Origin: Anaerorhabdus furcosa
Lineage (GTDB): Bacteria; Bacillota_I; Bacilli_A; Erysipelotrichales; Erysipelotrichaceae
DNA: 64,000 nucleotides
NCBI RefSeq assembly: GCF_900167375.1
Contig: NZ_FUWY01000001.1
Span: forward strand, 124,001-188,000
Reading direction: 5' to 3'
A program made the translations under genes and the position numbers. The notes under the pieces are model-generated. The model was not told the origin of the DNA. It saw nothing but the letters and a program-made list of their open reading frames with translations, and did no database searches. Every line of letters starts with the position of its first letter. Position 1 is the first letter of the stretch. Shown one piece after another: positions 15,873 through 64,000 of this stretch.

Positions 15873-17039
15873 ATGAATCAAAACATAACAAAAATTGAAG
15901 TCAATGACAAAGAAATATACCTAATTGGTACAGCACACGTATCCCATACAAGTCGTCAAGATGTAAAAGAATGCATTGATGAGGTACAACCTGACAGCAT
16001 TTGCATCGAATTAGATGATGAAAGATATGCTGCTTTTAATAACCCAAAACGTTGGGAAGATACCGATATTATCCAAGTAATCAAAGAGAAAAAAACAGGA
16101 TATATGTTAGCTAATCTTATTCTATCTTCTTACCAAAGAAGAATTGCAAAGAAGATGGATGTACAAGCTGGACAAGAAATGATTCAAGGAATTGAAAGTG
16201 CAAAAGAAACTGGTGCAAAACTTGTATTAGTTGATCGAAATATTCAAACAACCTTCAAAAGAATTTATCGTAAACATAATTTCTTTCAAAAGATCAAATT
16301 ACTTACATCCCTCATCATGTCAATTTTTGATGATGAAGACATTAGTAGCGAGGACATTGAAAATCTTAAACAATCTGAAGTCTTAGATGTTGCGCTTAAA
16401 GAAGTTGCAAAAGAATTTCCTGTTGTAGCAGAAGTACTTATTCACGAAAGAGATCAAGTGCTTGCATATAAGATTAAAAATGCACCTGGCAAGAAGATTG
16501 TCGCAGTACTTGGTGCAGCACATATTCCAGGAATTAAAGAAGAAATAGGAAAAACCTATGATATTAAGGAGTTGGAAAGCATCCCTGAAAAAAAGCCTTC
16601 TTCTAAAATCATGGGGTGGGTTGTTCCAATCCTCATTATCGCAATGATTATCTCAATGTTCAGTATTAATACAGAGCTTGGAATTGAACAAATTCGCAAT
16701 TGGATTCTTTGGAACGGTTCACTCTCTGCCATTGGTGTCTTACTTGCATGGGGACATCCACTAGCAATACTAACTGCATTTATTGCAGCACCCATTACAT
16801 CGCTTAATCCTTTATTAGCTGCTGGCTGGTTTGCAGGATTAGTAGAAGCTTTTGTCAAAAAACCCAAAGTTAAAGATTTTGAAAACATACTTGATGATGT
16901 AAATTCAGTAAAAGGATTCTATAAGAATCGTGTCACTCATATTCTATTAGTTGTTGTCTTCGCAAATCTATTTAGTACATTGGGTACGCTAATTGGTGGA
17001 TTTGATGTGGTGAAAAATTTCTTACAATCATTTATGTAA
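15873..17039 (+). CDS. TraB/GumN family membrane protein
   Basis: 388 residues. The N-terminal TraB domain has the signature LIGTAHVSHTSRQDV, a CIELDDERY segment and GAAHIPGI near residue 220. The C-terminal third has four to five membrane segments. The family is related to pheromone-shutdown TraB and to Tiki-like metalloproteases; the substrate here is unknown. I prefer the ATG at 15873 over a TTG twelve bases upstream, because GAGG sits six bases before this ATG. Confidence 0.85.
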   Translation: MNQNITKIEVNDKEIYLIGTAHVSHTSRQDVKECIDEVQPDSICIELDDERYAAFNNPKRWEDTDIIQVIKEKKTGYMLANLILSSYQRRIAKKMDVQAGQEMIQGIESAKETGAKLVLVDRNIQTTFKRIYRKHNFFQKIKLLTSLIMSIFDDEDISSEDIENLKQSEVLDVALKEVAKEFPVVAEVLIHERDQVLAYKIKNAPGKKIVAVLGAAHIPGIKEEIGKTYDIKELESIPEKKPSSKIMGWVVPILIIAMIISMFSINTELGIEQIRNWILWNGSLSAIGVLLAWGHPLAILTAFIAAPITSLNPLLAAGWFAGLVEAFVKKPKVKDFENILDDVNSVKGFYKNRVTHILLVVVFANLFSTLGTLIGGFDVVKNFLQSFM

Positions 17040-56175: not shown

Positions 56176-56766
56176 TTATCCCTTCGCTATCATAAGCGCT
56201 ATTGCTTCAATCAATAATATAATACCACTTACTATTAAATAAATTCCCGACATCCACTCAAATGTCAACGTAGTCACAAATGGACTAATAATAAAGAAGA
56301 ATGCAAGGATAATATTTAGCCAGCCACTGAAAGTAATCATTCCAGTTTTGTATTCTCCAGCCATTTTCAATGATGATGCGAAATTCAGTTTATTAAATCC
56401 TGACATAAGCAATACTATTGCGAATATCATAGCCAAGAAATTAAGAATAACTCCTACTGTTAATGCTTTCGAATCCCCCATCCATAGAGTAAGAATCCAA
56501 CCAGCAAATAAAATATTAATAATCGCTAATACTAAATCCCATGCACTTCTACTTTTCGAACTAAAGTAACGAACTAAAATATATATTCCTTCAATCCCGA
56601 TTCCAATTGCAATTAATATTCCTGCACCAATACTCACTGCAAGAGGATTAATAAATAATAAAACGCCAACAGCTATCATAAGGATAGCAGCAATAATTCC
56701 AGAAAGAGCATGGCGTTTTAGCATGCCTTCCATCGATGTTTCCATAGTAAAATCTTGTCTTAACAT
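56176..56766 (-). CDS. DUF308 (HdeD-like) membrane protein
   Basis: 196 residues with six membrane segments in three similar pairs, each with patterns like ILMIAVGVLLFINPLAVSIGAG. This is the HdeD/DUF308 arrangement, linked to acid resistance in enterobacteria. AAAGGAAA lies before the start. Whether it works with gadBC is unknown. Confidence 0.82.
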   Translation of the reverse strand: MLRQDFTMETSMEGMLKRHALSGIIAAILMIAVGVLLFINPLAVSIGAGILIAIGIGIEGIYILVRYFSSKSRSAWDLVLAIINILFAGWILTLWMGDSKALTVGVILNFLAMIFAIVLLMSGFNKLNFASSLKMAGEYKTGMITFSGWLNIILAFFFIISPFVTTLTFEWMSGIYLIVSGIILLIEAIALMIAKG

Positions 56767-57837
56767 AATTTTTTCCTTTCAATACAAGTTGGTTTTGACA
56801 AAGCGGGTCATATCAAGATTTAAATCTTGGTAATAATATTTGTCACTACTTGGTTAATTTCATTATAATACGCTTTTTTATAAAACACGTGGATTTCACT
56901 CTTTCAATCATTTCTCATTTAATAATTATAAGTCACTTAATAGCTAAGAATAAGTTAATAAAGCCAATTATGTATGAATTATCTCAATACATAATTGAAG
57001 CCAAAAAAAGCAACAATCTATTATGATCGTTGCTTCATTTACTAATGGTGTGAATAGGGGTATGAGTTGCGAACCCTATACTTCTTGTTACTTACGATGA
57101 TATTATATCATAAAATATAATTTTGCATACATCATCTTATACCTAATAGATATTATACAAACTACAGTTAATCATTAATAGAAATGTCCCCGAATTACGA
57201 TAATAACCTTAAATCGTTTTGAAATTCTCTCTGCTTTGGCAACTTCACTCTATGTGCACTTTCACCACAGATTACTAGCATATGCCTGTCATACCATAAA
57301 AAACATTTATTTTACTTACTTTAAAAATATCCACAGTTTTGCAAGATGTTTTTAATCAATTTTATAATACCCCACTAACTGTTTTAGGTCTTTACTAAAT
57401 TGTTTTCAAACTGTTCAATCAGTTTGAAATGTAAATTTAAAAGAATGTGAAAAATAACTAGCAAAGATCTCACCATTAATATCAATTTTCCTAACCTACT
57501 AATTTAAAATGAATTTCAGTACCGTAAAATGAATTTTTGAACAATACCTCTTTAAGATTGAATTCATACATTTCATTTAGCTCAATGACAAAAGTAAAAA
57601 TCTTTAAAATAAACCTCACAATTACCACATGCACAAAACAATCACAATGTGATAAAAACTTTAAATATAGTGTTGTTTGGATTATCATTTTAACATCATC
57701 AAATTAACAACAAAAATCATTAATTACGAGAGAACTCTTTGAATCAATATATTCAAAATTCATATTATAATCCCATCCGCTTTTATACTAAATATGTATC
57801 CGAATTATCATTAAGTATTATAAAATTAATATTAACT
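56767..57837. other. Gene-poor start of the variable region
   Basis: More than 1 kb, very AT-rich, with no reading frame I can support. It holds a leftward terminator and tRNA-like 3' end (57003-57085). A GGGGACATTTC stretch at about 57184-57195 looks vaguely like an insertion-sequence end but cannot be assigned. A 65-codon frame at 57491-57688 has odd composition and no ribosome site. Confidence 0.5.
57003..57085 (-). other. Possible decayed tRNA 3' end with terminator
   Basis: On the minus strand a sequence ending in CACCA (57045) has a T-loop-like GGTTCGCAAC 20-30 bases before it. It is followed by a strong hairpin, AAGCAACGATC pairing with GATTGTTGCTT, and TTTTTTT (57002-57036). That layout matches a tRNA gene end plus terminator, but the arms do not pair properly, so it would be a remnant. 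Confidence 0.35.
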
Positions 57838-59496
57838 TCAGACATTAGTAAGTTTCTCAATAATATCTTTTAGTTTTATTACTTCTATCTTAGATTTTTT
57901 AGAGTCGTTATCTATATAATATTTTTTATCTTCTCCACTATTTACAATTTTAAAAATATAACCTGTTTCTTGTTCAACCGCTGAAGTCATTTTTGTGCCG
58001 TCCTTTATATCATTCATAAGATCCCAGCATATAATAGTATCTACATTTTCAAAAGAATGATTAAAGCAATCTTTTTTTAATTTATACTTTAATTCTACAT
58101 AAAAATACTCACAATCTTTTAAAGGTTGATCACTATTTTTTCTAGCTAAAATATCTATCCCTTTATACGTATTATAATCAATTGGCTCGAAATTAAAATA
58201 TTCTCTTTTCAAAGTATAGAGTGAAACAAAAATCGCATATGTTTCTTGCTCATTATTAGGTTCATAAAATGAACATCCACAGAATGTTATTTTCTTTTTT
58301 TCTTCTATCCGTCTTTTTCTTGCATTAAATTCTTCTCTTTCCACCTCCATAGTTCTCTTTTCATTTTGCCATGATTTCAATGCATCTAAACAATTATTTT
58401 TATAGAGATCTATATTAATTTCTTGAATAAATTCTTTAATTTCTTCTTCTAATGCATTCAATTCCTCAACCGAAGTATTTGTTATTGATCCTCTATTTGC
58501 AGTAAGTTTAAAATGCTGTGAATTTACAAATCCATGAATCATTACAAACGAATTTGATCCGGTTCCAAAGTTAGAAATCCACTCATTCACTCGCTGCACG
58601 GGAATATAGTCTTTACACAAATAGATTCCGTATCTATCCGAAACTTTATATCTTCCTTTTTGGGTTTTCTTGGCCCCAAGCATCGGATTGTAATTTTTTT
58701 TAGCAGAATCTCCTTCAACATAGATCACAACTTCGTATTTAAAATAGGGATACTTTTCCAAGCAATCACTTTTCTCATATTTCTTAACAAAATAATCACA
58801 AGCATCAACGTCATGCAACTCAAATAATTCATTAATATTATCATTGACTTTCGGAAATCTATGACCAAATTCAAGTTTCTCATATTTATCCCGATCTAAC
58901 CCTTTTAACTTTATGATACAACTACTTAATTCAAGTTTCCCAAATTCTTTTTCAACAGATCCATGCTTAGTAAACCAATAAATATAATCTTTCACAATTT
59001 CATGCGAATACTTCGAATAATCTCTAGAATAATTTGTGAGTTTAATTCGTGTTCCTCGTTCACATTCGTGTAAACTCTTGAACTTAGGTGCATGAAGTTT
59101 TCCTCGTTTTAAGGCATCATAAGGTTTATCGCAGTAAGAGTAATAATGTTCCTCACCTGTTGATGTCCATATTTCAATTTTCTCAGACCTTAAGTAAATT
59201 TTTGTACCATGTCCTTTTTCTCCAATCTTCTCCTTATTTTCTTTAGAAGAAGAATTACCTAAGCTCCAAAAATTTTCTTTTAACATTTTTTCAGACATTC
59301 CACTGCCATTGTCTATTATTTCAATTGTAAAAATGTCTTCAGTCATCTGAAATATTAATGAAATCTCCGTCGCTCCATGATCATAAGCATTGGAAATACC
59401 TTCTCTTGTCACTTCTAAAGGATCTCCAAAATCACCTGTTATTTCACTGAATTCCCCTACACTGTTAACTTCAGGAATAATTTCTATTTCATTCAT
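57838..59496 (-). CDS. GHKL ATPase fused to a PD-(D/E)XK-like nuclease domain
   Basis: 552 residues, intact. The N-terminal Bergerat-fold ATPase (about 20-200) has its N box at REGISNAYDHGA (Glu32, Asn36, Asp39), G1 box DNGSGM (62-67), G2 loop LGNSSSK...GEKGHGTK (79-99), and GTRIKLTNY near 148. A transducer-like region with HFKLTANRGS and a helical Glu/Arg-rich linker (about 345-402) follows. The C-terminal part (about 410-550) has GIDILA (Asp448) and FYVELKYK (Glu468, Lys470), the spacing of a PD-(D/E)XK active site, then VDTIICWDL. No H box, so not a histidine kinase. It resembles MORC/MutL-like ATPases and GHKL-type restriction enzymes, but no methyltransferase is adjacent. It is probably an anti-phage or DNA-targeting protein. 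Confidence 0.8.
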   Translation of the reverse strand: MNEIEIIPEVNSVGEFSEITGDFGDPLEVTREGISNAYDHGATEISLIFQMTEDIFTIEIIDNGSGMSEKMLKENFWSLGNSSSKENKEKIGEKGHGTKIYLRSEKIEIWTSTGEEHYYSYCDKPYDALKRGKLHAPKFKSLHECERGTRIKLTNYSRDYSKYSHEIVKDYIYWFTKHGSVEKEFGKLELSSCIIKLKGLDRDKYEKLEFGHRFPKVNDNINELFELHDVDACDYFVKKYEKSDCLEKYPYFKYEVVIYVEGDSAKKNYNPMLGAKKTQKGRYKVSDRYGIYLCKDYIPVQRVNEWISNFGTGSNSFVMIHGFVNSQHFKLTANRGSITNTSVEELNALEEEIKEFIQEINIDLYKNNCLDALKSWQNEKRTMEVEREEFNARKRRIEEKKKITFCGCSFYEPNNEQETYAIFVSLYTLKREYFNFEPIDYNTYKGIDILARKNSDQPLKDCEYFYVELKYKLKKDCFNHSFENVDTIICWDLMNDIKDGTKMTSAVEQETGYIFKIVNSGEDKKYYIDNDSKKSKIEVIKLKDIIEKLTNV

Positions 59497-60039
59497 ATCC
59501 AGTTCGTCACCCTCGTTTATTAGATCATGAATTACAGTAAATTACAAGATCTTTTCCATAATTATAATCTCCTATAATACTTAAAATAACTTTAAATGCA
59601 TATGTTCTACTACCTCATTTTGAAAATATAAGATTTATCCTAAATGATTTAAATAAAACATTAGTTTAATTTTTCTTAATTATGAAAGATCTTGTTTTAA
59701 TATGAAAATCCATTAGCATGTCATTTTTACAAATTTACAACAAAAAATCAGAACTTTTGATAATATTAATTCATGTGACAGTGACAAAAGAAAGTCAAGT
59801 AGAGTTTATTCTAATATTTGCTAAATAAATAGTTCTAGCCTAATACTTCCTTTCGTATTGAGTATATAAAAAGCGGTTATTTAAAACACTCAATTTATAA
59901 TGGTAAGTCCTTGGGTTGGTAAAAAATGTATTCATTTTGCTTCTCTATAGTTAATAAAAAGCATTAGTTCTTCACTATAGCTCAACATATAATTTCATAC
60001 TTTTTATTTTTATGGTGCCATATTTTTTTAATTCTATGA
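59497..60039. other. Gene-free stretch with a decayed attachment site
   Basis: Should contain the promoter of the leftward GHKL gene. No open frame is supported. The only recognised item is the decayed tRNA-Lys 3'/terminator copy at 59868-59915, described separately. Confidence 0.5.
59868..59915 (-). repeat. Decayed copy of tRNA-Lys(CTT) 3' end plus terminator (old attachment site)
   Basis: Aligns without gaps to 61484-61531 with 39 of 48 bases equal (counted by eye). It includes the tRNA end TGGT..TCCTTGGG and the start of the flanking terminator hairpin at the same spacing. The match ends in the T-arm, so it is not functional. Confidence 0.65.
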
Positions 60040-60800
60040 TTACTTTATACAGTATCCATTTGCATTATGCAATATTTTTTCCCACCTGGTTGAAAAGTCA
60101 TATTCGTTTGGAACACAGGCACCATTCTTCTTCATAGATTCCCCTAATTTAAATACAACTCTCTCGCCTAATTTTTTATTTGGATTGAGTAACATGAGTA
60201 TGTAAATGAAATAGAATGTAGTGGAATTATCGACAGGTTCTCCATTCAAAAAATTTTCATTAACTATGGCTGGTTTGATGGTGTGCTTAAAACTAATATA
60301 AACGAGTGAAGTGGCAACATAGATTTCTAAGATATGCCGCACTATGATAAAGGCGATTCAAGTCTAAAGGACTAATATTTGAATAACCATCTATCTTTTT
60401 ATCTTTTAACTTTAAAACAGAATAAAATCTGGATATATCTCCAAATGACATTATTTCACCATTGCCCATAGCGGTATTTCACCATCATATTTATTCCTAT
60501 GATGTGCAACAATTAGATTTTTATCGTTTTTTCTGCTATATCATTCATTTTTTTAAGAATCCTTAAGCTGTCACCATAGTTGCTGTAATTATCTAAGTTC
60601 CTATATCCCATTCCACCATATTTTAATGAAAAACTATAGGAAATTTGTGTTTTCAAATATACTTCAACATCACTTATTATTTCGAATAATATACCTCTTA
60701 ATTCTTTGTCAAATTTATATATAATATACATTTTCAAAACTAACCTTATCTTTAAATTTACCACATTCATCTAAAAAATCAATCATATAGCCACTAAGCG
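60040..60800 (-). pseudogene. Abi_2 (AbiD/AbiF-like) abortive-infection pseudogene
   Basis: Pieces of an Abi_2 protein lie in several frames on the minus strand. YMIDFLDECGKFKDKVSFEN comes first (about 60740-60800). A shifted frame gives YKFDKELRGILFEIISDVE and LKTQISYSFSLKYG, then IPLWAMV before a stop. Another shift gives EIMSFGDISRFYSVLK and AAYLRNLCCHFTRLY. The frame ending at 60040 carries the C-terminus. At least three frameshifts and a missing N-terminus show it is dead. Abi_2 proteins stop phage growth by killing or arresting the infected cell. Confidence 0.78.
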
Positions 60801-60897
60801 TAGATTATCAAGTTAAATTGGACAGTGAAAGAAAGCATGAATGAAATATAATGGAAATGAGAGATGATTTGTGATGGTCTTGAAAGGAGGTCATTTT

Positions 60898-61143
60898 ATG
60901 ACTGGCACAAATAAACATTTAACCTATGATGATCGTCTTAAACTATTATCTTTTGTTTCTAAGAATTATAGTATGTGTAAGATTGGAATGATTTTAGGTA
61001 AATCACCTTCCTCTATTTCTCGAGAATTAAAAATCAATTGTTATCGTAAATGGGTCTTCAATGACAATGATACCTTATGTACGCATGCTCGTACCTATCC
61101 AAGTATTAAACGTGGTTGCAATCAAACCTGTAAGCTTTATTAG
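60898..61143 (+). pseudogene. Truncated IS30-type transposase
   Basis: AAAGGAGG is followed by 81 codons matching the N-terminal HTH of IS30-family transposases: HLTYDDRLKLLSFVSKNYS and KIGMILGKSPSSISRELK, then the Cys-containing segment. The frame stops at 61143 without the DDE catalytic core, so only a fragment remains. It abuts integrase remains immediately downstream. Confidence 0.8.
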
Positions 61144-61151
61144 CTTGAACC

Positions 61152-61443
61152 TTGCCCTCGTTTATTAAAAGCGCCTTGGGTTTGTTTGTTGATGATGAAC
61201 CATTATCAAATACAACAATACAACGAATCTTCGATAATGGAATAAAAACCTCAGGAGTTAAAAAGATACGTATACACGATTTAAGACATTCTCACGCAAC
61301 AAACTTAATCAATGCAGGTGGCAAACATAGTAGCAGTATCAAAACGCCTAGGACACAGTGATATATCAATGACATTGCGAGTATACACACATCTAATGAA
61401 AAGAAGTGAAGATGAACTTATCGCAATATTAGAAAATAAATAA
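61152..61443 (+). pseudogene. Tyrosine integrase C-terminal fragment, frameshifted
   Basis: The first part reads TTIQRIFDNGIKTSGVKKIR then IHDLRHSHATNLINAG (catalytic His/Arg box). A frameshift near 61320 follows, and the other frame gives VSKRLGHSDISMTLRVYTHL with the second His and the catalytic Tyr, to a stop at 61441-61443. The N-terminal three quarters are missing. Such integrases (Tn916/phage type) insert at tRNA genes, and a half-tRNA lies 74 bases downstream. Confidence 0.85.
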
Positions 61444-61471
61444 ATGGTACCAAAGTGGTGCCATTTTTACT
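61444..61471 (+). terminator. Terminator after the integrase remnant
   Basis: An 8-bp stem ATGGTACC/GGTGCCAT (one G-U pair) with a five-base loop, then TTTTT. Confidence 0.7.
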
Positions 61472-61480
61472 TTAGACAAC

Positions 61481-61507
61481 AAAAAAAAGTGGCTATTTAT
61501 ACCACTT
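61481..61507 (-). terminator. Native terminator of the tRNA-Lys(CTT) gene
   Basis: A 6-bp stem AAGTGG/CCACTT followed leftwards by TTTTTTTT. It sits just downstream of the half-tRNA and is also preserved in the decayed copy at 59868. Confidence 0.65.
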
Positions 61508-61516
61508 ATTTTTTAA

Positions 61517-61561
61517 TGGTGACTCCTTGGGGGATCGAACCCCAGACCCACTGATTAAGAG
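61517..61561 (-). other. tRNA-Lys(CTT) 3' half: attachment-site duplicate
   Basis: 45 bases read as a perfect 3' half of tRNA-Lys with anticodon CTT: the loop from its first base (CTCTTAA), anticodon stem 3' strand TCAGT, variable loop, a fully paired T-arm TGGGG-TTCGATC-CCCCA, the acceptor 3' strand AGGAGTC and encoded ACCA. The 5' half is absent: the sequence to the right turns into unrelated A-rich DNA exactly at the anticodon loop, a common integrase crossover point. It is therefore an att site rather than a working tRNA. Confidence 0.8.
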
Positions 61562-61695
61562 ATAAAAAAATCTATTAATAATCAAAGAAATATCAACAAA
61601 TTTCTCATTCTTGCCAATAATTAATAGTTGATATAATGAAAAAATAATTCAATTCTTCAGTTAAATCATTTTTCTATAAACTACATACATATAAA

Positions 61696-61716
61696 AGTGG
61701 GTTGTATAAACCCACT
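61696..61716 (-). terminator. Terminator of the small secreted-peptide gene
   Basis: A perfect 8-bp stem AGTGGGTT/AACCCACT with a five-base loop and TTTTAT leftwards, 17 bases after the peptide stop codon. Confidence 0.75.
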
Positions 61717-61732
61717 CCTATTCATAGCTCCA

Positions 61733-61930
61733 TCATACTGGTCCATCATCAATCATTCTAAATTTTGAAGTACAGGGAATCGGACTATCTTTTGACAACT
61801 TACCAGTGTTAACATCATAAATACAAGGTTTTATATTATTACTTGTATTTACAATAATCTGATTATGACTTCCAAGTACTAGCATCAAAATAATTGAACA
61901 GTTGAGAATGGTCTTCATTATTTTTTTCAT
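61733..61930 (-). CDS. Small secreted peptide precursor (candidate)
   Basis: 65 residues. Met-Lys-Lys and a hydrophobic stretch (about 7-20) form a signal peptide. The remaining 40 or so residues are polar with two cysteines bracketing PCIYDVNTGKLSKDSPIPC. AAGGGAGA lies before the ATG and it has its own terminator, so it looks like a real short transcription unit. It is divergent from the XRE-TPR regulator 169 bases away, the layout of peptide-pheromone systems. A bacteriocin-like or signalling role is inference. Confidence 0.6.
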   Translation of the reverse strand: MKKIMKTILNCSIILMLVLGSHNQIIVNTSNNIKPCIYDVNTGKLSKDSPIPCTSKFRMIDDGPV

Positions 61931-62099
61931 TCTTCAGTCTCCCTTCTTATATATATTATACTTTATTTAGCAATAATTAAGATTTAGTTTGTGTTATAGA
62001 TTTAAATAATTAATTCATCTTTAAGCACATTAAATTACTGTCTATTTATAACACTCAATCATTTGATAGTGTGATACCATTAATGTAGAGGTGAAAGCT

Positions 62100-63299
62100 A
62101 TGGAAAATTATGGGGTTGCATTAGGAGTGCTTGTTAAACGCGAAAGACTAAAAAACAATTTAACAGCGCAACAACTAGCAAAAAAAGTAAATTTTTCAAG
62201 AAGCTATATTTCTAGAATTGAAAACGGAGTTTTAGTAGATGATTCAATCTACAAAAAGATAATGGCTTATTTTCATTTGCCTTATTATGGTATTAGTGAA
62301 TGCCAAGCACATGAAAATAAACTTGATTATGCTTATTTAGACTTCATATATATAAAAGATAAAAAGAAGAATATTTCAGAATTACTCTTTCAACTAGCTG
62401 ATTACAAGTATTCTCCACTATTCGCTAAATACATGATTATACAACTTATTTATTATGTTACTTACCCCGAAGAAAACCAACAAGAAAAAGAAACATTCTT
62501 AGCTGAAATATTATCACTAGTTCATTCCTTTTCACCAAATCATCAACAGATTATTTATGATTATTTAGGATTTGATTTTATGTACAGTAATGTATCAAAA
62601 GCAAAAATATATTTTGATAAAGCAATCGCTTGTGGAGTATTCAATGAGTCGACGAGTATGTTATACTACCATATTAGTGTCTTTCAATATCGTTGTAATC
62701 ATTTATGTTTAGCATTCTCATTCTCCACGAAAGCTTTCAATCAGTTTAGCACTGAATTAAATTATAAAAGACTATTCTATACTAAATTTCATATTGCTAA
62801 CATCTTCATGCTTGATCAAGCTTACGATAAAGCAATAGGAATGTATAAAAAATTGATAGATAATGATGCAGTAGAAGATAAGTCAATTGTATTTTCAAAT
62901 CTCTCTTGGGCATACTACAGCATTAAAGAATACGATAAGGCAAAACTTATGATTTCAAAATGTACACATAAAAGATTTAGTTATTACTTCAATTCAATCT
63001 TAATTAACGCGGCTCTAAAGAATACTTCTGATGCCTTATCACTAATTAATGAGTTTTTGAAAAAATCAAACAATAATATAGAAAGGCAAATTATTTTCAT
63101 ATTAAAGTGCAAGATAACAAGTCAATATTCAGACGATTTTGAACAACTACTAATCACCAGCTATAAACAAGCAAAGAATTCATTTGATATTACAATTGTC
63201 TCACTTTTAAATTCGTACTTGGTTGATTACTTTATTTTAAATCGCGAATATAAGCAAGCTAATTATTATTTAAGAGAATTATTTAATTCTAAGTTATAA
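62100..63299 (+). CDS. XRE-type regulator with TPR-like domain (RRNPP/Rgg-like)
   Basis: 399 residues. The N-terminal HTH (about 8-62) has RLKNNLTAQQLAKKVNFSRS and YISRIENG. A long all-helical domain (about 85-399) has TPR-like repeats (for example AKIYFDKAIACGVF, AYDKAIGMYKKLI, EYDKAKLMISK). This architecture binds short peptides in Rgg, PlcR and MutR regulators. I chose the ATG at 62100, which has AGAGGTG at a better spacing than the GTG nine bases upstream. It probably controls the divergent peptide gene and/or the C39 gene. Confidence 0.82.
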   Translation: MENYGVALGVLVKRERLKNNLTAQQLAKKVNFSRSYISRIENGVLVDDSIYKKIMAYFHLPYYGISECQAHENKLDYAYLDFIYIKDKKKNISELLFQLADYKYSPLFAKYMIIQLIYYVTYPEENQQEKETFLAEILSLVHSFSPNHQQIIYDYLGFDFMYSNVSKAKIYFDKAIACGVFNESTSMLYYHISVFQYRCNHLCLAFSFSTKAFNQFSTELNYKRLFYTKFHIANIFMLDQAYDKAIGMYKKLIDNDAVEDKSIVFSNLSWAYYSIKEYDKAKLMISKCTHKRFSYYFNSILINAALKNTSDALSLINEFLKKSNNNIERQIIFILKCKITSQYSDDFEQLLITSYKQAKNSFDITIVSLLNSYLVDYFILNREYKQANYYLRELFNSKL

Positions 63300-63496: not shown

Positions 63497-64000
63497 ATGA
63501 AAAAAATTTTGATTGGCATTGTTACTTGTTGTTTGTTTGCTATCTCATTTAGTGGCAATGTATTTGCACTTGATGGAACTGGCGAAGATCCTGGTTTTAC
63601 ACCAAATGATCCACCTGGTACAAACGTGCCTGACGATTTCACCATAGACACAACTTATCGTGTTGAACCAAGACCTTCAAATCTACCATACACATTCACT
63701 GAACATCATTTATCACGTGGATATATAGTAGATTCACGTTGGACCACTGATGGTCTTTCATACTATAAACAAGGTGATTATCCTAATAATTATTATGGGG
63801 CAGATAACTGCTCTGATAGTATTGCTACAAGTGGATGTGCTTTGACAGCTTTAGCTTCTGTAGTAAGTCGCTATGGAAAATATTACAATCCACCTGAACT
63901 AAATATATTTTTAGGTAAAGGAGCATTCAACGGATGTTTATTAAACTGGATTACTGCTGCTAATCGCTTAAGTTTGTCATATCAAAAAGATGACTTTGCA
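63497..64000 (+). CDS. Secreted C39-like cysteine peptidase (3' end outside window)
   Basis: 168 codons are present and the frame is open at the right edge. The signal peptide is residues 1-25 (ends about VFALDG). A Pro/Asp/Gly-rich stretch (about 26-50) is followed by a C39_2-type domain: YYKQGDYPNNYYG, ATSGCALTALASVVSRYGKYY with the likely catalytic Cys near 115, and PPELNIFLGKGAFNGCLLNW. AAAAGGAG lies before the ATG. The catalytic His/Asp would lie beyond the edge. Probably extracellular. Confidence 0.8.
   Translation, partial: MKKILIGIVTCCLFAISFSGNVFALDGTGEDPGFTPNDPPGTNVPDDFTIDTTYRVEPRPSNLPYTFTEHHLSRGYIVDSRWTTDGLSYYKQGDYPNNYYGADNCSDSIATSGCALTALASVVSRYGKYYNPPELNIFLGKGAFNGCLLNWITAANRLSLSYQKDDFA

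Follow-up and report, generated by a model that had tools for sequence, protein, structure and literature searches.

We found that the right-hand end of the window, a stretch of 64,000 nucleotides from the genome of Anaerorhabdus furcosa (G000, contig C2, positions 124001–188000; 2.41 Mb in 11 contigs), very probably holds part of an array of integrative elements that accreted in tandem at one tRNA-Lys(CTT) gene, at its 3' end, with an older, decayed element (E1, 59868–61504) lying outward of a newer one. The newer element lies mostly to the right of the window and was read in a rightward extension (L003, contig positions 180001–200000), where a position plus 56000 gives the window position. 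A first-pass annotation of the window had proposed repeated site-specific insertion at one tRNA gene, with the older insertion partly erased; an intact gene carrying the same 57 bp and related elements at tRNA-Lys(CTT) genes, both described below, support that proposal. The features within the window, from left to right, are as follows.

59868–59915, minus strand: decayed att copy, the remains of the tRNA-Lys(CTT) 3' end and its terminator, forming the outer border of E1 (39/48)
60040–60342, minus strand: C-terminal remnant of an Abi_2/AbiD-like gene (PADLOC AbiD, E 6e-5, profile positions 208–276 of 277)
60513–60770, minus strand: N-terminal remnant of the same Abi_2/AbiD-like gene (Pfam Abi_2, E 1.2e-11; PADLOC AbiD, E 4e-16)
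60871–61143, plus strand: N-terminal remnant of a transposase, putatively IS30-like (Pfam HTH_38, E 2.7e-10)
61152–61443, plus strand: tyrosine integrase remnant, C-terminal part, interrupted by a frame break (Pfam Phage_integrase, E 1.3e-7)
61484–61504, minus strand: terminator hairpin region of the inner att copy, unlike the hairpin of the intact gene (from the sequence)
61505–61561, minus strand: perfect 57-bp att repeat, from the anticodon loop to the 3' end plus a T-run (100% identical to L003:16719–16775)
61611–61621, plus strand: TTGCCAATAAT at the left end of the newer element, a candidate arm site for its integrase (sole exact copy in the window)
62091–63299, plus strand: cargo gene for an HTH regulator with a long C-terminal part (Pfam HTH_3, E 1.9e-9)
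63497–64000, plus strand: cargo gene for a C39-peptidase-like protein, running past the window end (L003:7497–8282; Peptidase_C39_2, E 3.3e-4, under the curated threshold)

A single intact tRNA-Lys(CTT) gene was found in the genome, at L003:16731–16806 on the minus strand, adjoining tRNA-Glu and tRNA-Asn genes. The first-pass proposal depended on a tRNA-Lys(CTT) gene elsewhere in the genome sharing the half-tRNA sequence, and such a gene is present, 11.2 kb to the right. A whole-genome search with the 17-bp tRNA 3' end, allowing up to 2 mismatches, returned two places only, namely this gene and the window copy. The two copies of the 57-bp repeat (L003:5505–5561 and 16719–16775), 11,214 bp apart, show no difference. 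Within the repeat, the half-tRNA proper (61517–61561) matches the 3' part of the intact gene exactly and stops in the anticodon loop, as had been described before. Outside the 57 bp the two perfect copies diverge, both in the hairpins beyond the T-run and in the sequence beyond the anticodon loop. The earlier description of 61484–61561 as one copy takes in the terminator; identity to the surroundings of the intact gene is confined to 61505–61561.

We then compared the outer copy, 59868–59915, with 61484–61531 and reproduced the reported ungapped match of 39 of 48 positions, terminator included; when every 48-mer of the window was compared, on either strand, the runner-up reached 27/48. The local alignment score was 51 against the window att copy (500 dinucleotide shuffles: mean 15.7, maximum 29) and 29 against the copy at the intact gene (shuffle maximum 29). 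Because the region is AT-rich and terminators resemble one another, chance or a common terminator motif might be thought to produce this likeness, but the distance to the runner-up over 64 kb and both strands, together with a score far above all 500 shuffles, makes such an origin scarcely credible. In its 48 bp the outer copy retains the acceptor/T-stem part together with the terminator but lacks the anticodon part, which counts against the accretion model. An Rfam search of 56700–62000 gave no match at the gathering score. Further outward, a candidate third copy near 57040–57090 (hairpin, AATGGTG and GCGAACCC) was rejected with a score of 18 (shuffle means near 15; maxima 34 and 25); the stretch at 57000–57110 has a hairpin followed by a sequence resembling a tRNA 3' end, which is not significant against tRNA-Lys(CTT). 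Directly outside the outer att copy, 57838–59496 encodes a GHKL-ATPase protein (HATPase_c_3) with weak likeness to BbrUII/HgiDII restriction enzymes, which may be part of a still older island.

Between the inner and outer copies, we recovered the Abi_2 and integrase remains named in the first-pass annotation, along with the HTH_38 remnant at 60871–61143, which we take to be the N-terminus of the IS30 transposase reported there. The integrase remnant is oriented towards the tRNA gene, and its second piece continues in another frame down to a stop codon that lies about 60 bp away from the 57-bp repeat. Gene remnants with an integrase stop this close to the repeat are the expected leftover of a decayed element whose integrase lay at the tRNA-side end. 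No relaxase was detected in the four E1 ORFs scanned, and of the integration and transfer genes only the frame-broken C-terminal piece of the integrase remains. This piece most resembled the integrase of G160 (45% over 56 aa), in a match too short for classification. Neither that G160 locus (L149) nor six others of the same batch showed a tRNA gene, so these relatives do not explain the presence of E1 at a tRNA gene. Comparison of the ends of E1 with those of the newer element revealed no likeness, a further point against the accretion model, and suggests that E1 was another kind of element. With its length of about 1.6 kb, E1 is best read as an older CIME (cis-mobilizable element) that the newer element displaced outward. 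As in the definition of a CIME given in the excerpted text of PMC5704250, att copies lie at both ends and the integration and transfer genes are lost or broken; unlike in that definition, one att copy (the outer) is badly decayed, the inner being perfect, and mobilisation in cis is therefore doubtful.

To the right of 61561 lies the fresher element, which the first-pass annotation had not recognised. It is bounded by the 57-bp perfect direct repeats, one of them inside the tRNA gene, and encodes an HTH regulator, the C39-like protein, a lipoprotein, a LytTR response regulator, a GHKL kinase, a relaxase, MobC, an integrase-like ORF and an HTH gene. Its mobilisation genes were identified by profile matches (Relaxase PF03432, E 2.4e-34; NikA-like, E 7.5e-14; MobC, E 1.2e-10), and an excisionase-like ORF of 69 aa (L003:15583–15792), named by its position and by reading, aligns to its counterpart in G037. 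Pfam searches of 10 of the 13 listed ORFs with a length of 80 aa or more revealed neither a gene for a conjugation pore (T4SS) nor a phage structural gene. Exact matching of the 45-bp half-tRNA against viral contigs found nothing, and relaxase searches of viral contigs and plasmids returned no close relative. Within the 20 kb read, TTGCCAATAAT occurs exactly three times (L003:5611, 16532 and 16574), in the same direction and always near the ends of the element, and with one mismatch allowed at five places against 1.3 expected; the copies may be arm sites of the integrase. At L003:9098–11979, the LytTR regulator and the GHKL kinase are accompanied by a small peptide with a signal-like start and without a Pfam match, perhaps a peptide-signalling or bacteriocin set.

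The first-pass annotation had also pointed to the right of the window for further copies, and besides the intact gene we found there a decayed copy of the element end. L003:8903–8970, which has lost about 50 bp, aligns with a gap to 16595–16713, the end of the newer element on the tRNA side, with a score of 78. Among 980 window pieces of 260 bases used as a control, the top two scored 122 and 120, which we took to be those containing the window att copy, and the next reached 44.9. A half-tRNA is not recognisable at L003:8903–8970. The presence of a decayed element end inside the newer element suggests a third insertion event, and the simplest reading of the alignment would be that the newer element is itself composite; a duplication inside the newer element is the alternative.

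The integrase-like ORF of the newer element (531 aa; L003:13985–15580) is broken. Integrases match residues 17–286 and DnaB-like helicases about 277–417; alignment with the complete 361-aa integrase of G033 extends from residue 4 to about residue 300, and that with Rep proteins of G209 and G160 starts at about residues 282–296. The integrase part thus ends near residue 287 and passes in frame into a Rep/DnaB-like part, and the HxxR box is absent, indicating an integrase cut and fused in frame to a Rep/helicase-like end, without its catalytic end. Since the newer element has no complete integrase of its own, we regard it as a decayed, IME-like element. The integrase of G037 (L138:7725–8633) is also cut in frame; in this case the fusion partner is a relaxase C-terminus, and the two parts have a few bases in common at the junction. 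Chance could account for both of the two fusions being in frame (1 in 9). We consider it decidedly unlikely that tRNA-Lys(CTT) elements recurrently become fixed, perhaps under selection, when an in-frame fusion with a rep or relaxase gene lying downstream truncates their integrase; in this scenario, the DNA-binding N-terminal half that was kept might still bind att and block excision or further insertion after catalysis was lost. Fusion by a deletion between two accreted elements was considered and dropped, as an intact parent is lacking. In a literature search no paper on this locus or on such integrase fusions stood out, which is no proof of absence.

Next, we examined the 272 genomes of the family, 22 of which, including that of A. 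furcosa, contain a match to the 531-aa ORF. Leaving A. furcosa aside, the top three integrase matches (G033, G053, whose integrase is cut by a contig end, and G037:C45) are of the same kind; each reads away from a tRNA-Lys(CTT) gene at a distance of 1.5–1.8 kb, the same place and direction as here. G033 differs in having downstream rep and relaxase genes of another kind, judged by reading its ORFs, so modules have probably been exchanged. In G037 a 50-bp half-tRNA repeat is present, with copies 8.4 kb apart. Seventeen stretches around integrase matches (one from the own genome) had tRNA-Lys(CTT) in 8 cases, other tRNA genes in 5 and none in 4; weaker relatives of the integrase thus use other sites too. 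In A. furcosa itself, L144 (contig C4, 415000–434000) carries another integrase of this broad kind, with a match along almost its full length, next to a tRNA cluster whose last gene is tRNA-Phe. Conversely, 18 tRNA-cluster stretches of other genomes contained no integrase match and no exact Lys half copy, indicating that most such clusters are free of this kind of element, within the limits that contig ends set for some.

A CTT-half pattern matched in 230 of the 272 genomes, a count in which one mismatch admits tRNA-Lys(TTT). Among the pattern matches listed, which run to about G129, we examined seven stretches of six genomes with at least two same-strand CTT copies on one contig, leaving out G000 and G037, already analysed, and G060:C85, where the copies are 154 bp apart. 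One intact gene with one or two half copies was present in four of the seven (G074, G111:C157, G116 and G119), half copies only in two (G102 and G111:C100) and two full genes in the last (G056). Terminator-like hairpins follow the half copies in the examined stretches, and the terminator of the 59868 copy is in this respect normal. In G111:C157 (L179), two half copies and the intact gene lie in one direction within 9.1 kb, likely another array of elements. An empty site, sought via the tRNA trio, BrnQ and the ABC transporter of the right flank, was not found; the Lys-Glu-Asn trio is conserved in many relatives and its neighbours are not. Traorella (L051) retains the right-flank genes, with the tRNA absent nearby.

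We considered whether the newer element alone represents a site-specific insertion, the 59868 copy being a segmental duplication of the tRNA end and its terminator and the debris being transposon-borne. The higher score of the 59868 copy against the 61484 copy, terminator included, than against the copy at the intact gene favours such a duplication. However, the integrase C-terminus ending beside the inner copy speaks against it, and half copies in relatives bear terminators too, so that terminator likeness does not single out duplication; we judge this explanation improbable. It is likewise unlikely that the elements are remains of a prophage or satellite phage rather than IMEs: integrase, xis-like and repressor genes are common to phages, and PHROG integrase and DnaB-like matches were obtained, but the newer element carries a relaxase and MobC, and phage structural genes are missing among its searched ORFs.

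We therefore prefer tandem accretion, for which the following history is proposed. E1 would have recombined into the tRNA gene by a crossover in the anticodon loop, rebuilding the 3' half of the gene from its own att site and displacing the original 3' end and terminator to 59868, where they would have decayed because nothing used them. Deletions and a transposon may then have removed most E1 genes, leaving a CIME of about 1.6 kb. Later, the newer IME-like element would have targeted the rebuilt gene end, leaving 61505–61561 as a border and the intact gene 11.2 kb away; 61505–61561 is the att site common to both elements, closing E1 and opening the newer one. Finally, an in-frame deletion would have joined the integrase to the end of the Rep/helicase-like gene, a truncation after which the newer element should no longer excise by itself.

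This mechanism is already known, and the present locus is a new case of it. As far as the excerpted text of PMC5704250 goes, tandem accretion of IMEs and CIMEs is described in streptococci, and tRNA-Lys(CTT) of Streptococcus agalactiae is named as a site for many IMEs. There, IME_Sag2603_tRNAlys with a decayed ICE has the same target, the tRNA-Lys 3' end, and resembles our locus in the tandem of an IME and a decayed element, the common att site and distantly related integrases; our locus differs from it in belonging to another bacterial family, in the newer integrase being itself broken and in the older element being reduced to its present size. For the family studied here, these observations mark tRNA-Lys(CTT) as a target of repeated insertion, where layers that differ in age lie together. 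They also indicate that when an insertion displaces a tRNA end, the terminator stays attached to it and decay follows. This would help to place island borders correctly in related genomes.
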